NCBI GenBank assembly: GCA_018648645.1 | Contig: JABGQS010000022.1 | Location: forward strand, 1 to 43,116 | Direction of reading: 5' to 3' | Length of the DNA stretch: 43,116 bases | From: Clostridia bacterium | GTDB lineage: Bacteria; Bacillota; Clostridia; Christensenellales; SZUA-584 | Shown here: piece after piece, positions 2,653-43,116 of the stretch | How the letters are laid out: every line of letters begins with the position of its first letter | Position numbering within the stretch: the first letter of the stretch is position 1 | Translations under genes and position numbers: made by a program | The notes under the pieces: generated by a model | Database searches by the model: none | What the model saw: the letters and a program-made list of their open reading frames with translations, nothing else | Told to the model about the DNA's origin: nothing

Positions 2653-4278
2653 ATGACGAAAAAGAGCTTTGTTAAAGGCGCTGCGATACTCGCGGCAGCA
2701 GGACTGCTGGTTAAGGTTTTGGGCGCTGTGTTCAGAATTCCGCTTACCAACTTAATAACTCCTGATGGCATGGCGAATTACTCCGTTGCATATCCGATTT
2801 ATGCAACGTTGGTTGTAATATCTACCGCCGGTTTGCCTTCAGCAATTTCAAGAATGGTTTCTGCTAGGGTAATAGTTGGAGATTACCGCGGTGCACACAA
2901 AGTATTTACAACTGCTTTAAAACTGCTTTTCGTCGTAGGTCTCATATCGACAATCGCGCTATTCTTTTTAGCTGATACAATTGCGACAATGAATAAGATA
3001 CCAACAGCGGCACTCGGAATTAAGCTAATCTCTCCTTCGCTGTTTTTCGTGGCGGTGCTTTCTGCATACCGCGGATATTTTCAGGGGCTTCAGCAAATGG
3101 TGCCAACCGCATCGACTCAAATTGTCGAACAGGTTGTCAAGCTTGGCGCAGGCCTATTGCTTGCGTCTCTATGGATAAGCCGAGGCGTTGAGTACGGTGC
3201 AGCGGGCGCGCTTCTTGGTGTGTCTCTGTCCGAAGTTGGTGCGCTTGCACTAATTATCATAATGTATAACCGCAGAAAGAAGGATATTAAGCTTCACAGA
3301 AGGCAAACGCATGTACCACCGTTGCAAACTAAGTATAAAAGCTTACGACGTGAATTAGTAACAATCGCCATCCCTATTACGCTCGGCGCTTCAATAATGC
3401 CGATAATAATGGCGATTGACACGTTTATTATCAATAATATTTTGCCCCTTGTTGACTACTCAGCCTTCAACCCGCTCCCTGCCAAAACTAATTTTGGCAT
3501 TTTGACGGGCTCAGTGAATCCGCTTGTCAACATGCCTGCAGTGTTGTCGGTCGCGCTCGCGATGAGCCTGGTGCCGGCTATTTCTGAAGCGCGTGCAAAA
3601 AACGATTTATTAGCAGTAAGCAGCCGGTCTGGCATGGGCTTTAAGCTCGCAATCCTGATTGGTCTTCCAAGCGCTCTTGGTATGTTCCTGCTTTCTGACA
3701 ACATAATATCGCTGCTATTTTCGAGCGGGTTAACTCCGCAAGAGCTGGCTGTCGGAGGAGAGCTGCTGCAAATTCTCGCAGTCGCCGTGCTGTTCCTAAC
3801 CATGCTCCAAACAACAACCGGCATCATTCAGGGCGCCGGAAAACCGTTTATACCACTCATCAACCTCGCCATCGGTGCGGCTGTAAAAGTGGTTCTTAGC
3901 ATCGTGCTGATGCGCATCCCATCGCTCAACATCAACGGCGCAGCTATCGGCACTGCGGCGTGCTATACAATCGCCGCTCTGTTGAACATAATCGCGATGC
4001 AGCGTATCGCTAAACCAAGCATTAAACCTATGTCCGGCGTATTCATGCCCATCGTGGCGGCGCTCTTCATGGGCGGTGCGGTGTATATAATCAAGTACTT
4101 CCTGTTAAACACGCTTGGCAACACGACTACAACACTAGTCGCAATTGTTGTCGCTATTGTCGTTTACGTGTTCATGCTCTTCCTCACAAAAGCCATTTCG
4201 ATAGACGACATGGAATACATCCCCGGCGGTGGCTTCATCACGCGCGTGATGCGAAAACTGCGTTTGTGGAAGGTGTAG
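2653..4278 (+). CDS. MOP-superfamily flippase, SpoVB/YabM (MurJ-like) family
   Basis: A 541-residue polytopic membrane protein, about 14 hydrophobic segments. The N-terminal stretch KGAAILAAAGLLVKVLGAVF followed by RIPLTN is typical of the SpoVB / polysaccharide-biosynthesis (PF01943/MurJ-like) branch, which flips lipid-linked glycans such as lipid II across the membrane. A MazG gene begins one base after the stop, the same order as yabM-yabN in Bacillus subtilis, which favours the YabM subgroup. The ATG follows GGAG. Whether it serves sporulation cortex or general cell wall synthesis cannot be told here, and the substrate is inferred from the family only. Confidence 0.85.
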   Translation: MTKKSFVKGAAILAAAGLLVKVLGAVFRIPLTNLITPDGMANYSVAYPIYATLVVISTAGLPSAISRMVSARVIVGDYRGAHKVFTTALKLLFVVGLISTIALFFLADTIATMNKIPTAALGIKLISPSLFFVAVLSAYRGYFQGLQQMVPTASTQIVEQVVKLGAGLLLASLWISRGVEYGAAGALLGVSLSEVGALALIIIMYNRRKKDIKLHRRQTHVPPLQTKYKSLRRELVTIAIPITLGASIMPIIMAIDTFIINNILPLVDYSAFNPLPAKTNFGILTGSVNPLVNMPAVLSVALAMSLVPAISEARAKNDLLAVSSRSGMGFKLAILIGLPSALGMFLLSDNIISLLFSSGLTPQELAVGGELLQILAVAVLFLTMLQTTTGIIQGAGKPFIPLINLAIGAAVKVVLSIVLMRIPSLNINGAAIGTAACYTIAALLNIIAMQRIAKPSIKPMSGVFMPIVAALFMGGAVYIIKYFLLNTLGNTTTTLVAIVVAIVVYVFMLFLTKAISIDDMEYIPGGGFITRVMRKLRLWKV

Positions 4279-34098: not shown

Positions 34099-34118
34099 CT
34101 TGGCAAAGAGAATACCAT

Positions 34119-34262
34119 TACAGTTTGAGGTGCGGTGTTCATTAGTATACTACGCTTAGGTATCGGGTTACCTGTGAGGCTTAGTGAAAGGGAATACTGC
34201 CGAAGGCAACTCTTTACCGAAAGAATTGTCTGGGTGCATTGGCTAATAGCCATGCAACTGTC
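34119..34262 (+). promoter_or_regulatory. Lysine riboswitch (L-box)
   Basis: Conserved lysine-aptamer elements appear in order: GAGGTGCG after the P1 left strand ACAGTT (34120-34125), AGTGAAAGGGAA, GCCGAAGG, then a TGTCTGGGTGCAT segment leading into a hairpin (TGGCT/AGCCA), and the P1 right strand AACTGT (34256-34261). It lies between a consensus promoter and the first lysine-pathway gene. When lysine is bound, the downstream terminator should form and switch off asd-dapA-dapB. No Rfam scan was possible. Confidence 0.88.
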
Positions 34263-34318
34263 GTCTTATATTTTTGACGGAGCGCTGCTGTGAACATATA
34301 CACAAGGTTTTATGTTGT

Positions 34319-34350
34319 AGCGCGCTAACGGTATTGCGTGCTATTTTTGT
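34319..34350 (+). terminator. Riboswitch-controlled terminator
   Basis: AGCGCGC (34319-34325) pairs with GCGTGCT (34335-34341) and is followed by ATTTTTGT. The left arm is also complementary to upstream GCGCT near 34282 through an alternative stem (AACATA/TATGTT next to it), a good antiterminator candidate. Confidence 0.75.
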
Positions 34351-34376
34351 ATATTATAATTTTGGAGGATAGGAAG

Positions 34377-35453
34377 ATGAAGAGGTTCAGAGTTGGAATT
34401 GCGGGAGCTACGGGTATGGTCGGACAGCGGTTTATTTCGCTGCTGGCGAATCACCCGTGGTTTGACATCGCGCAGCTAAGCGCAAGCAGCAGGTCTGCGG
34501 GCAAAACGTACAGAGAGGCAACAAGCGGCAGATGGGCTATGGATACTCCTATGCCGAGCAGCGTTGCTGACATGATAGTGCTGGACGCAAGCGATATTGA
34601 CTCAGCTGTTGGCGCGGTCGATTTCATTTTCTGCGCAGTCGATATGGACAAAGCGGCAACGCGAGCGCTTGAGGACGCGTACGCTAAAGCCGAGATTCCT
34701 GTGGTTTCTAACAACAGCGCACACCGGGCCACAAAAGACGTTCCGATGATGATCCCGGAGGTCAACGCAGAGCATGTGGAAGTCATCTACAGCCAGCGCA
34801 AGCGCCTAAAAACCAAGCGCGGTTTTATTGCGGTTAAGCCAAACTGCTCAATACAAACCTATGTGCCGGCGCTTCATCCGTTGATGGAATTTGGCGTAAA
34901 AGAAGTCGTCGCGTGCACATATCAAGCGATTTCGGGCGCAGGCAAAACTTTTGACTCCTGGCCGGAGATGATAGACAACGTTATCCCCTATATCGGCGGC
35001 GAAGAAGAAAAAAGCGAGCAGGAGCCGCTAAAGGTTTGGGGCAAGGTGGTCGGCGATGAAATAGTGAATACGGACAGTCCCGTGATTACGTCACAGTGCA
35101 TCCGCGTGCCGGCGACAGACGGTCACATGGCTGCAACGTTCGTTAAGTTCGATAAGAAACCGAGCAAGGAAGAAATCCTAGAGCGCTGGGCGGCTTATCA
35201 AGGCGTTCCGCAACAGCTTAATTTGCCAAGTGCACCAAAGCAGTTTTTGGTTTATTTCGAAGATGACAGCCGTCCACAGACCAAGCTCGACCGTGATAAC
35301 CAAAACGGCATGGGCGTAACCATCGGACGCTTGCGCGAAGACACACTGTACGACTATAAGTTTGTCTGCCTCAGCCACAACACGCTTCGTGGCGCAGCAG
35401 GCGGCGGAGTTCTTGCGGCAGAGCTTCTTGCAGCAAAAGGTTATTTTGACTAG
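34377..35453 (+). CDS. asd: Aspartate-semialdehyde dehydrogenase
   Basis: 358 residues. Nucleotide-binding loop GIAGATGMVGQRF (residues 7-19), catalytic Cys157 in VKPNCSIQTYV, and a histidine in ATDGHMAATFVK. The PNCS motif and the length place it in the archaeal/fungal-like ASADH class rather than the shorter E. coli one. It converts aspartyl phosphate to aspartate semialdehyde, the branch point to lysine, threonine and methionine. The start at MKRFRVGI follows TTGGAGGAT; an earlier in-frame ATG (34338) lies in the terminator. First gene of the riboswitch-controlled operon. Confidence 0.95.
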   Translation: MKRFRVGIAGATGMVGQRFISLLANHPWFDIAQLSASSRSAGKTYREATSGRWAMDTPMPSSVADMIVLDASDIDSAVGAVDFIFCAVDMDKAATRALEDAYAKAEIPVVSNNSAHRATKDVPMMIPEVNAEHVEVIYSQRKRLKTKRGFIAVKPNCSIQTYVPALHPLMEFGVKEVVACTYQAISGAGKTFDSWPEMIDNVIPYIGGEEEKSEQEPLKVWGKVVGDEIVNTDSPVITSQCIRVPATDGHMAATFVKFDKKPSKEEILERWAAYQGVPQQLNLPSAPKQFLVYFEDDSRPQTKLDRDNQNGMGVTIGRLREDTLYDYKFVCLSHNTLRGAAGGGVLAAELLAAKGYFD

Positions 35454-35483
35454 ACCAATAGATTCACTTTAAGGAGTTTAATT

Positions 35484-36365
35484 ATGAGTATATTTTCCGG
35501 AGCAGGCACAGCGCTTGTAACACCTTTCAACGAAAAGGGTATCGACTACACGGCTTTCGAAGTGTTGCTCGACTACCAGATTAAGGGCGGTATAGACGCG
35601 CTGGTCGTTTGCGGCACCACGGGCGAATCCTCTACAATGAGCAAGCAGGAAGACCTTGATGCAATCGCGTTTGTTGTAAAGCACGCAGACGGTCGCGTGC
35701 CGGTTATCGCGGGCGCAGGCAGCAACGACACCGCAAGCGCAGTCGAAGCATCTAAGAACGCGTCCGACCTCGGCGCAGACGGCATACTAATCGTCACGCC
35801 GTACTATAACAAGTGCAACGACACCGGGTTGATAAGACACTACCACGCGATAGCAGACGCCTCAGGCGCTCCTATAATCGCTTACAACGTTCCTTCGCGT
35901 ACAGGCGTTAACATCAAGCCGGAGGTCATGCGGGAGATTGCTGTCCACGACAACGTAGCGGCTATCAAAGAAGCCAGCGGCGATATAAGCCAAATTGCGC
36001 AAACGTGCAGGCTTTGCCCCGACATTGATGTTTACAGCGGCAACGACGACCACGTTGTGCCAATACTTTCGCTCGGAGGCACAGGCGTAATTTCGGTCGT
36101 TTCCAACGTTATGCCTCAAATGACGCATGACATGGTTGCAAGTTACTTAAACGGCGACGTTAATACTGCCACAGCGCTTCAGCACAAGCTCAATCCGCTC
36201 ATAGACGCGCTGTTCAGCGAAGTGAACCCCATTCCTGTTAAGACGGCGCTCAACATGATAGGCATAAACGCGGGACTGCTGCGAATGCCGCTTTGCGAAA
36301 TGAGCGAGAGCAACGCCGCCAAGCTAAAAGAAGAGCTTATTGCGATTGGTTTGAAAATAGTATAG
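35484..36365 (+). CDS. dapA: 4-hydroxy-tetrahydrodipicolinate synthase
   Basis: 293 residues, TIM barrel of the DapA/NAL family. The Schiff-base lysine is Lys162 in AAIKEASGD, with Tyr134 (AYNVPSRTG) and the Thr pair in CGTTGESS. It condenses pyruvate with aspartate semialdehyde, the product of the preceding gene. AAGGAG lies 11 bases before the ATG, 30 bases after asd. Feedback residues for lysine inhibition were not examined; expression should depend on the riboswitch. Confidence 0.96.
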   Translation: MSIFSGAGTALVTPFNEKGIDYTAFEVLLDYQIKGGIDALVVCGTTGESSTMSKQEDLDAIAFVVKHADGRVPVIAGAGSNDTASAVEASKNASDLGADGILIVTPYYNKCNDTGLIRHYHAIADASGAPIIAYNVPSRTGVNIKPEVMREIAVHDNVAAIKEASGDISQIAQTCRLCPDIDVYSGNDDHVVPILSLGGTGVISVVSNVMPQMTHDMVASYLNGDVNTATALQHKLNPLIDALFSEVNPIPVKTALNMIGINAGLLRMPLCEMSESNAAKLKEELIAIGLKIV

Positions 36366-37733: not shown

Positions 37734-37827
37734 GGAGAAGTACCCAAGTACGGCTGAAGGGGCTCCCCTGCTAAGGGAGTAGGCTGAGGTAATCGGTGCG
37801 AGAGTTCAAATCTCTCCTTCTCCGCCA
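37734..37827 (+). tRNA. tRNA-Ser (anticodon GCU)
   Basis: 94 bases with a seven-pair acceptor stem (GGAGAAG with CTTCTCC), discriminator G and encoded CCA. The anticodon arm is CTCCC-CTGCTAA-GGGAG, giving anticodon GCU. It has a long variable arm, as in class II serine tRNAs, and a T-loop TTCAAAT. The mobile element lies immediately downstream. Confidence 0.95.
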
Positions 37828-37856
37828 TATTATGTCAGCACTTAATGTGTTGTATG

Positions 37857-37894
37857 CAGACCAAGCGTTTAAGCCGTTTGGTCTGTTTCTTTTT
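37857..37894 (+). terminator. Intrinsic terminator of tRNA-Ser, overlapping the recombinase 3' end
   Basis: CAGACCAAGCG (37857-37867) pairs with CGTTTGGTCTG (37875-37885), including one G-T pair, and is followed by TTTCTTTTT. The minus-strand recombinase stop codon (37869-37871) lies inside the loop/stem. Confidence 0.82.
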
Positions 37895-39545
37895 GGTAAC
37901 GAGTTATATGGTCGAAAAACTCTGTAATGTCACAGCCTTTAAGCTCTCCTACAAAGTTGTAGTTTATACTTACTTTCTGCTTATACTCCTTACCGACCTT
38001 CACTTTCTTAGACACCGTTATGTAATCAATTAATTCACATATGGTATCCCTGTCCAATTCTTCTATGTAGATTCTTTGCTTAAAACTCTCAATTAGATGT
38101 CTTATGTTTTGAGTATCGTCTTTGACAATGGAAAACTCTGCTTTAAGCTCAGACAATTCGATATTAAGCGCATTCTGCCGGTCTTCGTACTTAATCATTA
38201 ACTTTTTGAACATAGAATCAGATATATTACCGCTTATCTTTTGTTCAAGCAATACGTCAATCTTGTTAGAAACACCCTTCAGATTGCTATTTACCGTCTT
38301 GATTTTACTTTCAAGCATAACGTTACTCTTCAGCTTTGTTCTGCCGTTTAAATTAAGCAAGAGACTTAGCATTTCATCGCTGCTCATTACAGCAAGCTCT
38401 GATATCTTACGGATATCGTTAAGAACAATTGCCTTTATTTCATCTTCCAATATGGAATGAAAACTGCAAGCAGTTTTGCCCTGATTGCTGTATGTGCTGC
38501 ACCTGTACTTGTAGTACGCTTTATACTTGCCGCTTTTGGAATAGGTATAATGCATTACTGCACCGCAATCTACACATTTTAGCTTTCCTGCAAATAATGC
38601 AGGTGTCTTATCAGCATTAACGGGTTTAGGTTTCTGATTCTTTTTATTCAATTTCAGAAGCCCTTGCACTCTGCTCCATGTGACTTCATCTATAATAGCT
38701 TCATGGGTATTTTCAACTAAAATCCATTCTTCCTGTGGTACAGTATCACGCTCTTTCATTTTAAAAGAACGGTTTTTACGCTTTCCTTGGCACATATGAC
38801 CGGTATATACAACATTCTTCAACATACGCATTATTGTAGCACTGCCCCAAAGTATCGTCTCTTTTGTATATGGGTTAGGCTTACCTATTAGATTGAAGTA
38901 ATACCCTCTCGGAGAAAGAACACCTTCCCTATTGAATGTATCGGCAATATGCCTTGCAGTATGTCCTATTGAATATAGATGAAATATTCTCTCTATTATA
39001 ACTCTTGAGCCTTCATCTATAACCAGCTTGTGCTTATCTTCGGGCGATTTTACATAGCCCATCGGCGGTTGACTGCCTAAGAAATACCCCTTTTTCATAA
39101 GAGTATGCTTTGCAGCCTTGACTTTCCTTGAAATATCCTTAGCATAGTGTTCATTCACTATGTTAAGAAACCCAGCTATATCATTGTCTTTAGTGCTGTC
39201 AATATTCTCATTAACAGCTATAAATCTTACCTTATGCCTAGGGAAGAAAAAATCAGTGTATTCGCCAACTCTTACATAGTTTCTGCCGAGTCTTGAAAGG
39301 TCTTTGCATATTACCATGTTAATACGCTTTTTCTCGATGTCAGCTATCATTCTTTTGAAACTCGGACGCTCAAACGTCGCGCCGCTTATGCCATCGTCAA
39401 TATAAATATTCTCTATCTGCCACCCTCTTTCCTCTACATAGTCTACGAGCATATCTCTTTGGTTAGAAATGCTCATACTCATGCTGTCAGAGTTTTTATC
39501 ATCTCTTGACAGCCTTAAATATAATCCTACTTTATAATCTTTCAT
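37869..39545 (-). CDS. Large serine recombinase (integrase of the mobile element)
   Basis: 558 residues. The resolvase catalytic domain (residues 1-150) contains the nucleophile serine in VGLYLRLSRDD, then GWQIENIYIDDGISG, and VICKDLSRLGRNYVRVGEY. A Recombinase domain (about 170-290) and a zinc ribbon (KCVDCGAV, with Cys pairs to about residue 390) follow, then a coiled coil (QNALNIELSELKAEFSIVKD) and a DUF4368-like tail. This resembles TndX/TnpX-type enzymes that integrate and excise elements between short core sites. GAAAGGAG precedes the ATG at 39545. It is the last gene of the relaxase unit and ends within the tRNA terminator. Confidence 0.95.
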   Translation of the reverse strand: MKDYKVGLYLRLSRDDKNSDSMSMSISNQRDMLVDYVEERGWQIENIYIDDGISGATFERPSFKRMIADIEKKRINMVICKDLSRLGRNYVRVGEYTDFFFPRHKVRFIAVNENIDSTKDNDIAGFLNIVNEHYAKDISRKVKAAKHTLMKKGYFLGSQPPMGYVKSPEDKHKLVIDEGSRVIIERIFHLYSIGHTARHIADTFNREGVLSPRGYYFNLIGKPNPYTKETILWGSATIMRMLKNVVYTGHMCQGKRKNRSFKMKERDTVPQEEWILVENTHEAIIDEVTWSRVQGLLKLNKKNQKPKPVNADKTPALFAGKLKCVDCGAVMHYTYSKSGKYKAYYKYRCSTYSNQGKTACSFHSILEDEIKAIVLNDIRKISELAVMSSDEMLSLLLNLNGRTKLKSNVMLESKIKTVNSNLKGVSNKIDVLLEQKISGNISDSMFKKLMIKYEDRQNALNIELSELKAEFSIVKDDTQNIRHLIESFKQRIYIEELDRDTICELIDYITVSKKVKVGKEYKQKVSINYNFVGELKGCDITEFFDHITRYQKETDQTA

Positions 39546-39636
39546 TTTGCTCCTTTCGTGAGAAACAAGCACAAATTATGAAGTAGTTTAGCCTTATAAA
39601 AAGTATACTCCATAATCTGCGCACAGTCCACTTTAT

Positions 39637-39840
39637 TTATCCGGCTTGCCTGTCAATAAGCCTAATTCTGCGCTCAGTTATCTTTCCGATAGCATCTTTA
39701 AATTGAGCGTCATCATTCTTAAATCGGCTGCTGACTTCAAACAAAGTTCTGCCGATTCTTATTTCGGACTCCATCATGTTGTCCCATAAAATAAAACGAC
39801 ATTCTTCTTGCAATTCAGTTTTCATATTTTCTTTATTCAA
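39637..39840 (-). CDS. Small hypothetical protein in the mobilisation-recombination unit
   Basis: 67 residues, no homologue recognised. Charged and helical: ELQEECRFILWDNMMESEIR, then SSRFKNDDAQFKDAIGKITE and RRIRLIDRQ. I use the TTG at 39840, because AGGAGG lies 6 bases before it and immediately follows the relaxase stop; the ATG five codons later has no good ribosome binding site. It lies between the relaxase and recombinase genes on the same strand, so a role in excision or transfer control is possible but unproven. Confidence 0.65.
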   Translation of the reverse strand: MNKENMKTELQEECRFILWDNMMESEIRIGRTLFEVSSRFKNDDAQFKDAIGKITERRIRLIDRQAG

Positions 39841-39850
39841 TAGTGTCCTC

Positions 39851-40801
39851 CTATCTCTCATTCAACCCTTTGATAATATCCTTATATTTTTCTTTCCCAG
39901 CCTGTAGTTTTTCTTTTGGAATACTATTAAGCAATCTCTCCTGTCTTTTTGCTGTCTGTGAGATAAAGCTGTTCTCCGCCAATAACTCGATAATCTTGTT
40001 GCCTTGCTTATCAACAGCATCCTGCATATCGTTGTTTTCTTTTTTCAGCGTGTTAATATAGTTAGCGCTGCGCTTAACCTGTGCAGTAAATTTCTGCGCT
40101 TTAGGTAGCCATGTATCGAGCATTTTAACAGCCTGCTCTTTTTTCTTTGCAGTATTAAATGAACCTATATTTTCAATAACCGTCTTTACTTCCGCAAACT
40201 CTCTGTCAAGATTCTGCGCTTGCTTATATAGCCATAGTGGTATGTGCTTCCTATGAGTTTTCATAGCAGATATTCCACGCTCTAAATCCCGCCATCTCTG
40301 TGACATACAATCATGGAATTTTGTTTGCCAGTCAGACAACTTTTTTTGATTACCGATTATCTCTTTTGCGGACAATCTGTTATCTCTTGTTATGGGCACA
40401 AAACATATATGCATATGCGGCGTTCTCTCGTCCATGTGAACTGTAGCTGTAATTATATTCTTTTCACCTATTTCATCTTTAATAAACTGCACTGCTCTAT
40501 CAAAGTATTCCGTATATTCGTTTACAGATATGCTTTCAAAAAATTCCGGGCTTGCTGTAATAAGCGTTTCAACCATAAGCACACTGTCTTTTCTTCTTTT
40601 GCACCCGGCAGATGCAATACGCTTCTTTATTTCAGCATGATAACTATGTACCGGTTTAATGATATGGTAATTAAACTCAGTTTTATCCAAATCGATATCA
40701 GGGTTGCTCTTATATTGTTTTTTCTTCCTCTCGTTATGCGATTCCAATGATGTTATTTGTCCGCCTTTTCTCTTAGCGAACCGCATTATTGCATATGCCA
40801 T
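39851..40801 (-). CDS. MobV-family relaxase (plasmid mobilization / Pre protein)
   Basis: 316 residues of the Mob_Pre family (PF01076). Motif I is LESHNERKKK near residue 20; motif III is the metal-binding HMDERTPHMHICFVP near residue 125. A coiled-coil region makes up the C-terminal half (KKENNDMQDAVDKQGNK). It nicks oriT on one strand and leads the transferred strand into a recipient using a helper's secretion system. AAAGGATG precedes the ATG. The matching oriT lies about 165 bases upstream on the same strand. Confidence 0.95.
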   Translation of the reverse strand: MAYAIMRFAKRKGGQITSLESHNERKKKQYKSNPDIDLDKTEFNYHIIKPVHSYHAEIKKRIASAGCKRRKDSVLMVETLITASPEFFESISVNEYTEYFDRAVQFIKDEIGEKNIITATVHMDERTPHMHICFVPITRDNRLSAKEIIGNQKKLSDWQTKFHDCMSQRWRDLERGISAMKTHRKHIPLWLYKQAQNLDREFAEVKTVIENIGSFNTAKKKEQAVKMLDTWLPKAQKFTAQVKRSANYINTLKKENNDMQDAVDKQGNKIIELLAENSFISQTAKRQERLLNSIPKEKLQAGKEKYKDIIKGLNER

Positions 40802-40830
40802 ATTTTCATCCTTTCCGTAGGTTTTTTAGT

Positions 40831-40963
40831 ACACCGCTAAGCCTAATTAAAATGCTTGCCTTATTGCGACATTCACCGCCGCAAACGATAAGCATTTTCA
40901 CAGCAAATACAGAGTTCAACATGCAGTCAAACTCAATATCTGCTGTTCGTCTTTTAGCGGTGT
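40831..40963. repeat. Nested inverted repeats upstream of the relaxase gene
   Basis: Outer arms ACACCGCTAA (40831-40840) and TTAGCGGTGT (40954-40963) are perfect and 113 bases apart. Inner arms AAAATGCTT (40849-40857) and AAGCATTTT (40890-40898) are also perfect. No ORF of note lies here. The right outer arm abuts the oriT nick site, so the structure may serve transfer or relaxase gene control. Confidence 0.7.
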
Positions 40964-40996
40964 AACACACTAGACCTTGCAAGCAAGGTCGGTGTG
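40963..40996 (-). other. Origin of transfer (oriT), pMV158/MobV type
   Basis: On the minus strand a hairpin with arms CACAC-C-GACCTTGC and GCAAGGTC-TA-GTGTG (40966-40996) ends in TAGTGTG, followed directly by TTA. TAGTGTG/TTA is the nick sequence known for MobM of pMV158, and cleavage at the 3' base of a hairpin is typical. The nick would fall between 40966 and 40965. The adjoining 41001-41099 contains further short repeats (GTGACA at 41018, TGTCAC at 41038, CGTCACA at 41047) and no gene. Confidence 0.85.
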
Positions 40997-41099
40997 CTCT
41001 GCGAGGCTCGAGGGGCTGTGACAGTAGCGGTAATAGGTGTCACTAACGTCACAGAATATGCTATACATCAAATTTGGTTGTATCGTATCCCTATACAGT

Positions 41100-41309
41100 T
41101 CACTCAATCATTTCTCCGCTTTTCTTGTTTATCCAGTTTACTAGTTGCTCTTTGCTGACCATCATGCGTTTCCCGATTCTTAGAGTCGGGAACTCTCTGC
41201 TGTTCATAAGCTCGTATACTTTTGTCTTTGACAGCCCCAGCACACCAGCCACATCATCCGCATTGAGCATGGTTGGCAAGTTGTCGTGTTCATTCCTGTT
41301 GTTTCTCAT
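41100..41309 (-). CDS. Excisionase-like helix-turn-helix DNA-binding protein
   Basis: 69 residues of the HTH_17 / MerR-like type (PF12728): MLNADDVAGVLGLSKTKVYE followed by REFPTLRIGKRMMVSKEQL and a short basic end. Such proteins act as recombination directionality factors or as small regulators in integrative elements. GAAAGGAG precedes the ATG. It is separated from the relaxase gene by the oriT region and is divergent from the DUF6076-like gene. Confidence 0.88.
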   Translation of the reverse strand: MRNNRNEHDNLPTMLNADDVAGVLGLSKTKVYELMNSREFPTLRIGKRMMVSKEQLVNWINKKSGEMIE

Positions 41310-41365
41310 TCCTTCTGCTCCTTTCTATTATCGTCTATAGTATTATTGTTTAAGCATAGTCCGTA

Positions 41366-41394
41366 TTGACATTATAAACACTAAATGATATTAT
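41366..41394 (+). promoter_or_regulatory. Putative sigma-A promoter of the DUF6076-like cargo gene
   Basis: TTGACA (41366-41371), 17-base spacer, TATTAT (41389-41394). It gives a leader of about 78 bases containing no clear hairpin. Confidence 0.7.
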
Positions 41395-41478
41395 TCAAAC
41401 GTATTTAGACTATTTATACTCGACTTGTTGGTAGTCGTTTTGAATAGCTATCGATAATCCAGTTTTGTGGAGGTTGAA

Positions 41479-42585
41479 ATGTCTTATTATTTGAAGATGA
41501 ATAATGATGAAATGGCTATTTATATTAATAGTGATAAAGGGTTGCTTAAAAGATATGAAGGTATTGTTGGGCAGCAGTTACTTGATTTTATTTATTATGA
41601 TTTGAGGAAGTTGAACGATTTACTTGATAAGACTTATTCATTAGCTACTCATATGCGAAATCCCGGCTTTGATTATTTCCTTAAAAGAGCGGATGATACG
41701 AATATTTACTTTCGGTTTTTTGTAGAACTGTTCTTAGAAACGATAACCTCTGACACGCTGAAAACAAAAAAGGGATTTGAAGAACTTTGTAATAGATTCA
41801 TAAGAGAAACTACTATATTAAAAAAAGAGGCGCAGTTTGCTGATATCTCTTATCGAAGCATCAGCAAGCCGTTCCTAATCGGTATTTTTTCATTACATGC
41901 TATGGGTATGCAGGAGTTTATGAAAACACAACTTGAGTTTTGTGTTAACAGTAATAGTGAAATGCAATATGGCAGTCTATCTCCTACAGAGAGATTATAC
42001 ATATATGAACAGTGGCGAAAAGCTAAGGGAGAGCAGCCATTGTATTTCGAAACAAATTCGTTTTTTTCTCAGCTCGTAATAACCGAAACCTTCAAACTTA
42101 ATAGTGAATTTTCTATAGAGGAATTGGCTAATATGATTAAAGCAAAGAAACCAGAAATCACTGAAATGACAGTGCTAGAAACAGGCTGGGCACTAATGCG
42201 CTATGAGCTTATGAAAATGGTCACACAAGGCGTTGTAGTAAAGAAATGTGCTAATTGTAGTAGATACTTCATTCCGGGTGGCAGAAGCGATACAGAGTAC
42301 TGCTCACGCCCTTTAGAAGGGCAAGCTGATAAGACTTGTCAGATTGTTGGTGCATTGGCAAAGCATCAAGACAAGATTAAGAGCGATCCTGTTTTCAAGG
42401 AGTATAAGAAGGCATACAAGCGTTATCACTCTAGGGTACGCACCGGATCAATGAAACAGGTAGTTTTCTTTGAGTGGTCAGAACAAGCTCAAGAAAAGCG
42501 TGATCAGTGTATTGCCGGAAAGCTTGATTTTGATAGGTTTGTTGAATGGCTCAATAAAGATAGGGTTTATAAGAAGAGAATTTAG
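41479..42585 (+). CDS. DUF6076-like protein with C-terminal zinc-finger motif (element cargo)
   Basis: 368 residues, soluble. The first 240 residues are mainly helical with no motif I can name. From residue 257 a cysteine pattern appears, CANCSRYFIP then YCSRP and a further Cys in KTCQIVGA, followed by a helical basic tail (EYKKAYKRYHSRVRTG). This cysteine arrangement, with a following helical tail, is what I associate with DUF6076 proteins, which are common on integrative elements; the identification is from memory. The start at 41479 follows GGAGG by 5 bases. It has its own strong promoter, divergent from the excisionase gene. Function unknown; nucleic-acid binding is plausible. Confidence 0.75.
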   Translation: MSYYLKMNNDEMAIYINSDKGLLKRYEGIVGQQLLDFIYYDLRKLNDLLDKTYSLATHMRNPGFDYFLKRADDTNIYFRFFVELFLETITSDTLKTKKGFEELCNRFIRETTILKKEAQFADISYRSISKPFLIGIFSLHAMGMQEFMKTQLEFCVNSNSEMQYGSLSPTERLYIYEQWRKAKGEQPLYFETNSFFSQLVITETFKLNSEFSIEELANMIKAKKPEITEMTVLETGWALMRYELMKMVTQGVVVKKCANCSRYFIPGGRSDTEYCSRPLEGQADKTCQIVGALAKHQDKIKSDPVFKEYKKAYKRYHSRVRTGSMKQVVFFEWSEQAQEKRDQCIAGKLDFDRFVEWLNKDRVYKKRI

Positions 42586-42613
42586 CGGATACATTCAAAT
42601 ACATATAAAGTAT

Positions 42614-42820
42614 ATAAGTGGCATGACATGCGTATGCCACTTATTCATGTTAAAAATCTAAAAAACTCAAATGTGGCATGATATGTGTATGCCACACACA
42701 GTTGGTGGCAATAACTTTTATCGCCACACATAGTTGGTGGCAAGTTTTTCATCACAAATTTAATTTTGTACGGCTACTGTTGGTGGCAATAGATGATTTG
42801 TGTGGCAACTGTTGGTGGCA
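42614..42820. repeat. Cluster of GTGGCA/TGCCAC repeats: two long palindromes and four GTTGGTGGCA copies
   Basis: This gene-free stretch holds two 23-base palindromic units (42618-42640 and 42673-42695) differing at two positions; the first extends to 11-base arms ATAAGTGGCAT/ATGCCACTTAT. Four copies of GTTGGTGGCA follow at 42701, 42733, 42779 and 42811 (spacings 32, 46, 32), with an extra GTGGCA at 42802. In total at least nine GTGGCA/TGCCAC boxes lie in about 205 bases. It is not a CRISPR array: units are too short and spacers irregular. The remaining gap, 42821-42954, is AT-rich with a 12-base palindrome GGAAAATTTTCC (42919-42930) and no ORF. Confidence 0.85.
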
Positions 42821-42954
42821 TGGAAGTGTTTTTTGTAAGGATTATAATCAAAGCAATTTTCTAGTCGTGTTATTACTATACCGTGTTTGTAACAATAGCG
42901 GGTTTTCCTAACCTTTTTGGAAAATTTTCCTATGAAGAAAATGTTTAATAAACC

Positions 42955-43116
42955 TCACATTTGTTTTGCTATGTGAGCACTCCGCTTATGGTGTGTTGTC
43001 CTCGTTAGCAATTGCTTCATCACAAATTTTGTAACCCCTCCGACTATAGCGCCTACAGCTGCACCAATCAGACCTGTAATCAGCATAAAAAACTGCCCGT
43101 TGGAGTCTTGATACAT
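42955..43116 (-). CDS. C-terminal tail of an Rhs-type protein (5' part outside window)
   Basis: Reading leftward from the window edge gives 53 codons beginning MYQDSNGQFFMLITGLIGAA and then VGAIVGGVTKFV. The pattern 'xDxxGxFF + glycine-zipper hydrophobic segment' is what follows the Rhs core (NPxxxxDxxG) in Rhs/YD-repeat polymorphic toxins and their relatives. The first Met is probably internal. The reading frame stops only about 25 residues after the hydrophobic segment, so no full-size toxin domain is present. It may be a naturally short tail or a truncated remnant. Confidence 0.6.
   Translation of the reverse strand: MYQDSNGQFFMLITGLIGAAVGAIVGGVTKFVMKQLLTRTTHHKRSAHIAKQM

Follow-up and report, generated by a model that had tools for sequence, protein, structure and literature searches.

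A phased array of GTGGCA half-sites in an integrative mobilizable element of a Clostridia bacterium: a candidate multi-site protein-binding region

The window, meaning the whole stretch of 43,116 nucleotides analysed here, is one entire contig of a Clostridia draft genome of 77 contigs. Rightward of a tRNA-Ser(GCT) gene its GC content falls from about 50% to 36-39%, and the left boundary of a mobile element lies at or just past the 3' end of that tRNA gene. Families were assigned to the element genes with Pfam/NCBIfam, and the locus contains the following features, the last of which lies immediately to the right of the array described below.

37734-37827, plus strand: tRNA-Ser(GCT), probable integration target
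37869-39572, minus strand: large serine recombinase, TndX/CcrB-like (Resolvase, Recombinase, Zn ribbon, DUF4368)
39637-39861, minus strand: 74-aa ORF between MobV and the recombinase, in the same position in other MobV/LSR elements
39851-40801, minus strand: MobV relaxase (Pfam/NCBIfam)
40963-40990, minus strand: predicted MobV origin of transfer, hairpin GACCTT-GCTTGC-AAGGTC followed by TAGTGTG/TTA
41100-41309, minus strand: 69-aa HTH_17/excisionase-family DNA-binding protein, divergent from DUF6076
41467-42585, plus strand: DUF6076 protein, 372 aa, with four Cys invariant in 33 homologues
42820-42879, no strand: A+T-rich flank, 27% GC

The visible part of the element carries its own relaxase and oriT without type IV secretion genes, and its own recombinase together with a specific integration site, by which it is an integrative mobilizable element. 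The tRNA-Ser(GCT) gene is the likely target because in three further genomes a related recombinase (41-43% identical) adjoins tRNA-Ser(GCT), the 3' ends of the two genes facing each other in every case. No duplicate of the tRNA-Ser 3' end CTTCTCCGCCA was found to the right of the DUF6076 gene in the visible contig, and the only candidate attachment site, a weak one, is TGTGTTGT, 8 bases that occur at both 37846 and 42992; the element may extend past the contig end. The last ORF of the window (53 aa, 42955-43116, minus strand) reaches that end and encodes a glycine/alanine-rich hydrophobic stretch; it gave no family match above the cut-off and presumably resembles the tail of a polymorphic-toxin-type protein. 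To the left of the element, positions 34117-36365 hold an ordinary lysine biosynthesis operon, in which a lysine riboswitch (Rfam RF00168) precedes the genes for aspartate-semialdehyde dehydrogenase and dapA, then dapB.

Copies of the tRNA-Ser 3' end were observed at other loci. In L133 CTTCTCCGCCA occurs at 3340, 9448, 10672 and 15395, three of these being recurrences downstream of a related recombinase, and Fic-domain genes stand in front of two copies, an arrangement suggestive of several cassettes added one behind the other. A 26-base match to the tRNA-Ser 3' end flanks an HTH-DUF6076 element in L023 (1829-1854 and 11880-11905), and the two copies are probably attL and attR.

The array begins about 30 bp past the DUF6076 stop codon. 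It contains nine exact GTGGCA/TGCCAC half-sites within 203 bases (42618-42820), which agrees with the count of at least nine in about 205 bases given in the initial annotation. The cluster is genuine and its density far exceeds chance: in 20,000 simulated Markov sequences, each 374 nt long and matched in dinucleotide composition, the maximum was five half-sites, and the densest 6-mer cluster in a simulated sequence of 10.8 kb reached six per 250 bp. No credible gene covers the array, again as first described, and a 77-aa ORF at 42678-42911 is a mechanical call only. The longer form GTTGGTGGCA stands at 42701, 42733, 42779 and 42811, with exactly the reported spacings of 32, 46 and 32 bases, and four of the seven copies present in the 2.67-Mb genome fall in the array. 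Two imperfect half-sites complete the series: a tenth, CGCCAC at 42722-42727, has one mismatch, and an eleventh (ACGGCT, plus strand, 42770-42775) is degenerate. In order, the half-sites are 42618(+), 42635(-), 42673(+), 42690(-), 42705(+), 42722(-, CGCCAC), 42737(+), 42770(+, ACGGCT), 42783(+), 42802(+) and 42815(+), and the successive steps from 42618 to 42815 are 17, 38, 17, 15, 17, 15, 33, 13, 19 and 13 bases. They are arranged in the following palindromes and units.

42614-42644, no strand: palindrome P1, ATAAGTGGCAT-N9-ATGCCACTTAT, an inverted repeat with 11-bp arms, 100% complementary
42673-42695, no strand: palindrome P2, GTGGCAT-N9-ATGCCAC
42705-42727, no strand: palindrome P3, GTGGCA-N11-CGCCAC (GTGGCAATAACTTTTATCGCCAC), with the 17-base half-site spacing of P1 and P2
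42691-42710, plus strand: unit U1, GCCACACACAGTTGGTGGCA
42723-42742, plus strand: unit U2, GCCACACATAGTTGGTGGCA
42769-42788, plus strand: unit U3, TACGGCTACTGTTGGTGGCA, left half degenerate
42801-42820, plus strand: unit U4, TGTGGCAACTGTTGGTGGCA

The core of P1 (42618-42640) has the same form as P2, GTGGCAT-N9-ATGCCAC, and the two 23-base sequences, which had been noticed as a near-identical pair with a 9-base centre, differ at 2 of 23 bases. The palindromes are three rather than two, P3 having been overlooked at that stage, so that three facing pairs of half-sites (P1, P2 and P3) share the 17-base geometry. The centres of P1 and P2 match at 9 of 11 positions, and that of P3 is unrelated (2-3 of 11). 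The right half of P2 doubles as the left half of U1, which together with T42690 forms an everted pair, TGCCAC-N9-GTGGCA. Palindromes of this kind could also act in RNA, as a structured 3' untranslated region or terminator of the DUF6076 transcript, with P1 able to fold into a stem of 11 bp some 30 bp past the stop codon and an RNA fold z-score of -3.3. However, the palindromes account for this signal (the DNA folding z is also -2.8), no Rfam family reached threshold in the cluster, and RNA pairing leaves the same-strand direct repeats at 32 bases unexplained; a function in RNA instead of DNA is therefore considered highly improbable.

These direct repeats form a plus-strand lattice at 42673, 42705, 42737, 42770 (the degenerate half-site) and 42802, with steps of 32, 32, 33 and 32 bases. 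Exactly 32 bases separate four of the same-strand pairs; random placement gave as many in 288 of 200,000 trials (0.0014), and permutation of the gaps in 584 of 200,000 (0.003). The helical phasing proposed in the initial annotation applies to the steps of 32 bases (3.05 turns) and fails for those of 46 and 55 bases (4.38 and 5.24 turns). The 20-base boxes are conserved beyond chance relative to their spacers: U1 and U2 are identical at 19 of 20 positions and U3 and U4 at 17 of 20, whereas the 12 bases that follow the box agree at only 3 of 12 and 4 of 12, respectively. Because the boxes were kept and the spacers diverged, a fresh tandem duplication alone does not explain the array, and the pattern in the sequence points to selection on the boxes over simple recent duplication.

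The array was not found elsewhere. There is no second copy of the segment in its own 2.67-Mb genome, where the palindromes are single-copy and thus ruled out as a dispersed genomic repeat, and a scan of the window with a position-specific matrix revealed no comparable cluster. Among 296 order-level relatives the 23-base unit gave only one site, with 2 mismatches and non-clustered, in one genome, and in viral contigs it gave no match. A pattern of three half-sites was present among 391 class-level genomes in the own genome only; in viral contigs it gave four isolated matches and no clusters. Pairs of GTTGGTGGCA were met in 38 viral contigs, and the few half-site-rich contigs among them, L105, L114 and L116, have unrelated spacings. 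A search for the 23-base unit and GTTGGTGGCA in other elements, which had been suggested at the outset, thus yielded no comparable cluster in the related elements, viral contigs and Clostridia genomes covered. GTGGCA clusters were likewise missing from about 30 other DUF6076 loci (L053-L082). A distant DUF6076 gene in another genome is followed, about 175 bases downstream, by a tandem array (L024, 6390-6690) that is A+T-rich, has periods of about 21-22 and 41 bases and differs from the array of the window.

The comparison with known elements showed that the MobV/large-serine-recombinase elements of Clostridia (Tn4451-type and relatives) have the canonical MobV nic site in common with the window element, and that the gene order MobV-small ORF-serine recombinase is shared with the Pusillibacter and Campylobacter elements. 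The HTH-DUF6076 module and the GTGGCA array of the window element, in contrast, were seen in none of the Tn4451-type, Pusillibacter and Campylobacter comparators. Since the array consists of hairpin-forming repeats within a mobilizable element, it might itself be taken for the oriT of the MobV relaxase. This reading has next to no probability, since mobV is preceded by a hairpin and canonical MobV nic site of its own (40963-40990), a segment that could be aligned between the window and two related elements. The nic consensus TAGTGTG/TTA is that of pMV158-type oriTs, and its only match in the window (40963-40972) is outside the cluster, which speaks against the cluster as oriT.

The divergent pair HTH(-)/DUF6076(+) of the window is also found in G004 and G094, elements with a tyrosine integrase. 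The G004 element, from a SZUA-584 MAG, further shares MobV and oriT with the window element, the protein identity being 56% for MobV, 56% for HTH and 57% for DUF6076. In both G004 and G094 a tyrosine integrase directly follows DUF6076 (called by sequence reading in G004, confirmed by Pfam in G094), whereas in the window the array stands there. Position 37734-42585 of the window, set against L017 (G004), differs in having a serine in place of a tyrosine recombinase. Judged from the sequences, the window element looks like a recombinase-swapped mosaic with the array in the integrase's place. No GTGGCA boxes were found in G004, the nearest related element.

The initial annotation had suggested accessory or arm-type sites for the recombinase or excisionase. 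The element does encode an excisionase-family HTH protein, and the array lies near its non-recombinase side, but a large serine recombinase, of a class not known to use arm sites, is the sole one encoded in the visible element, and the recombinase end is without any half-site. Moreover, the tRNA-Ser-associated relative in L133 has no array. Arm-type sites are decidedly unlikely because no tyrosine recombinase is in view.

The array resembles iteron-type plasmid origins in being a cluster of non-coding repeats beside A+T-rich DNA, and an iteron-type replication origin or copy-control site of an excised circle, at which Rep would bind the repeats and the 27% GC flank would unwind, was another of the functions first proposed. 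A TATAAT also occurs in the flank (42843-42848), with no good -35 box to accompany it. Elements of the present kind may replicate, because the related G004 element has an AAA_25 (RepA-like) helicase and other MobV/recombinase elements carry a gene for 'replication initiator protein A'. The helicase gene of the G004 element (L017, 7693-8601) lies between oriT and the HTH gene, and the window element is without it. Against an origin, no Rep or helicase gene was recognised by Pfam/NCBIfam among the visible element genes, and no DnaA box TTATNCACA within 1 mismatch was present at 42560-43116. Classical iterons are direct repeats of 17-22 bases, unlike the present lattice of 32 bases and mixed orientation. 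The proposal is thus left unsupported by the genes in view and by the cluster itself, and we regard it as rather unlikely, noting that a Rep or Par protein might still be encoded past the end of the contig. A partition or stability site for a centromere-binding protein would likewise be non-coding and made up of palindromes together with phased direct repeats; however, no ParA, ParB or ParR gene was found in the visible element, and an integrating element needs partition less. This last of the original suggestions is not borne out by the genes in view, and its probability is very low.

As to the binder, the DUF6076 protein has four cysteines kept in 33 of 33 homologues, and its family, which occurs in 62 of the 391 Clostridia genomes sampled, is not mentioned in any paper of the literature searched. 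Its AlphaFold model (mean pLDDT 82.8) gave no significant match in the PDB with Foldseek and no recognisable DNA-binding fold. Between the HTH and DUF6076 genes the window and G004 can be aligned (68% over 176 bp), and no GTGGCA occurs there. Because binding to their own promoter would be expected in this conserved region, neither HTH nor DUF6076 is an obvious binder, and the missing motif appears to weaken the case for both. It is tempting to speculate that the array, acquired where relatives carry the tyrosine integrase, could be an operator or centromere-like site of a new DNA-binding system, one in which DUF6076 zinc proteins, for instance, regulate mobilizable elements by binding arrays, but we hold this to be quite unlikely.

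Box conservation, 32-base phasing and location argue well for the protein-binding array in a mobile element that had been proposed from the letters of the sequence. A cis-acting multi-site array at which a DNA-binding protein would act as a dimer or oligomer, with a probably regulatory or architectural role and with candidate binders encoded by the element, is an explanation to which we give about even credence. Protein binding, the identity of the binder and the outcome are here what we infer from the arrangement of the boxes. The recognition element would be the half-site GTGGCA, in its best form GTTGGTGGCA, and the palindromic geometry of the half-sites suits a dimer. On the 32-base, three-turn lattice half-sites are combined facing each other 17 bases apart, back-to-back at 15 and as direct repeats at 13, so that several dimers might be placed, possibly cooperatively, on one face of the DNA. 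The array is intergenic and near the HTH and DUF6076 proteins. The regulator assembling on it could be the 69-aa excisionase-type HTH protein, DUF6076 or a protein encoded beyond the contig end, and once assembled it may control the expression or the stability of the excised element.

The array, whose lattice is unusually regular, would be a further example of multi-site DNA-binding arrays in mobilizable elements, and it is specific to the present element. The list of candidate binders is short and includes DUF6076. Such arrays show where the proteins of an element act and hence bear on the control of its replication, expression or excision.
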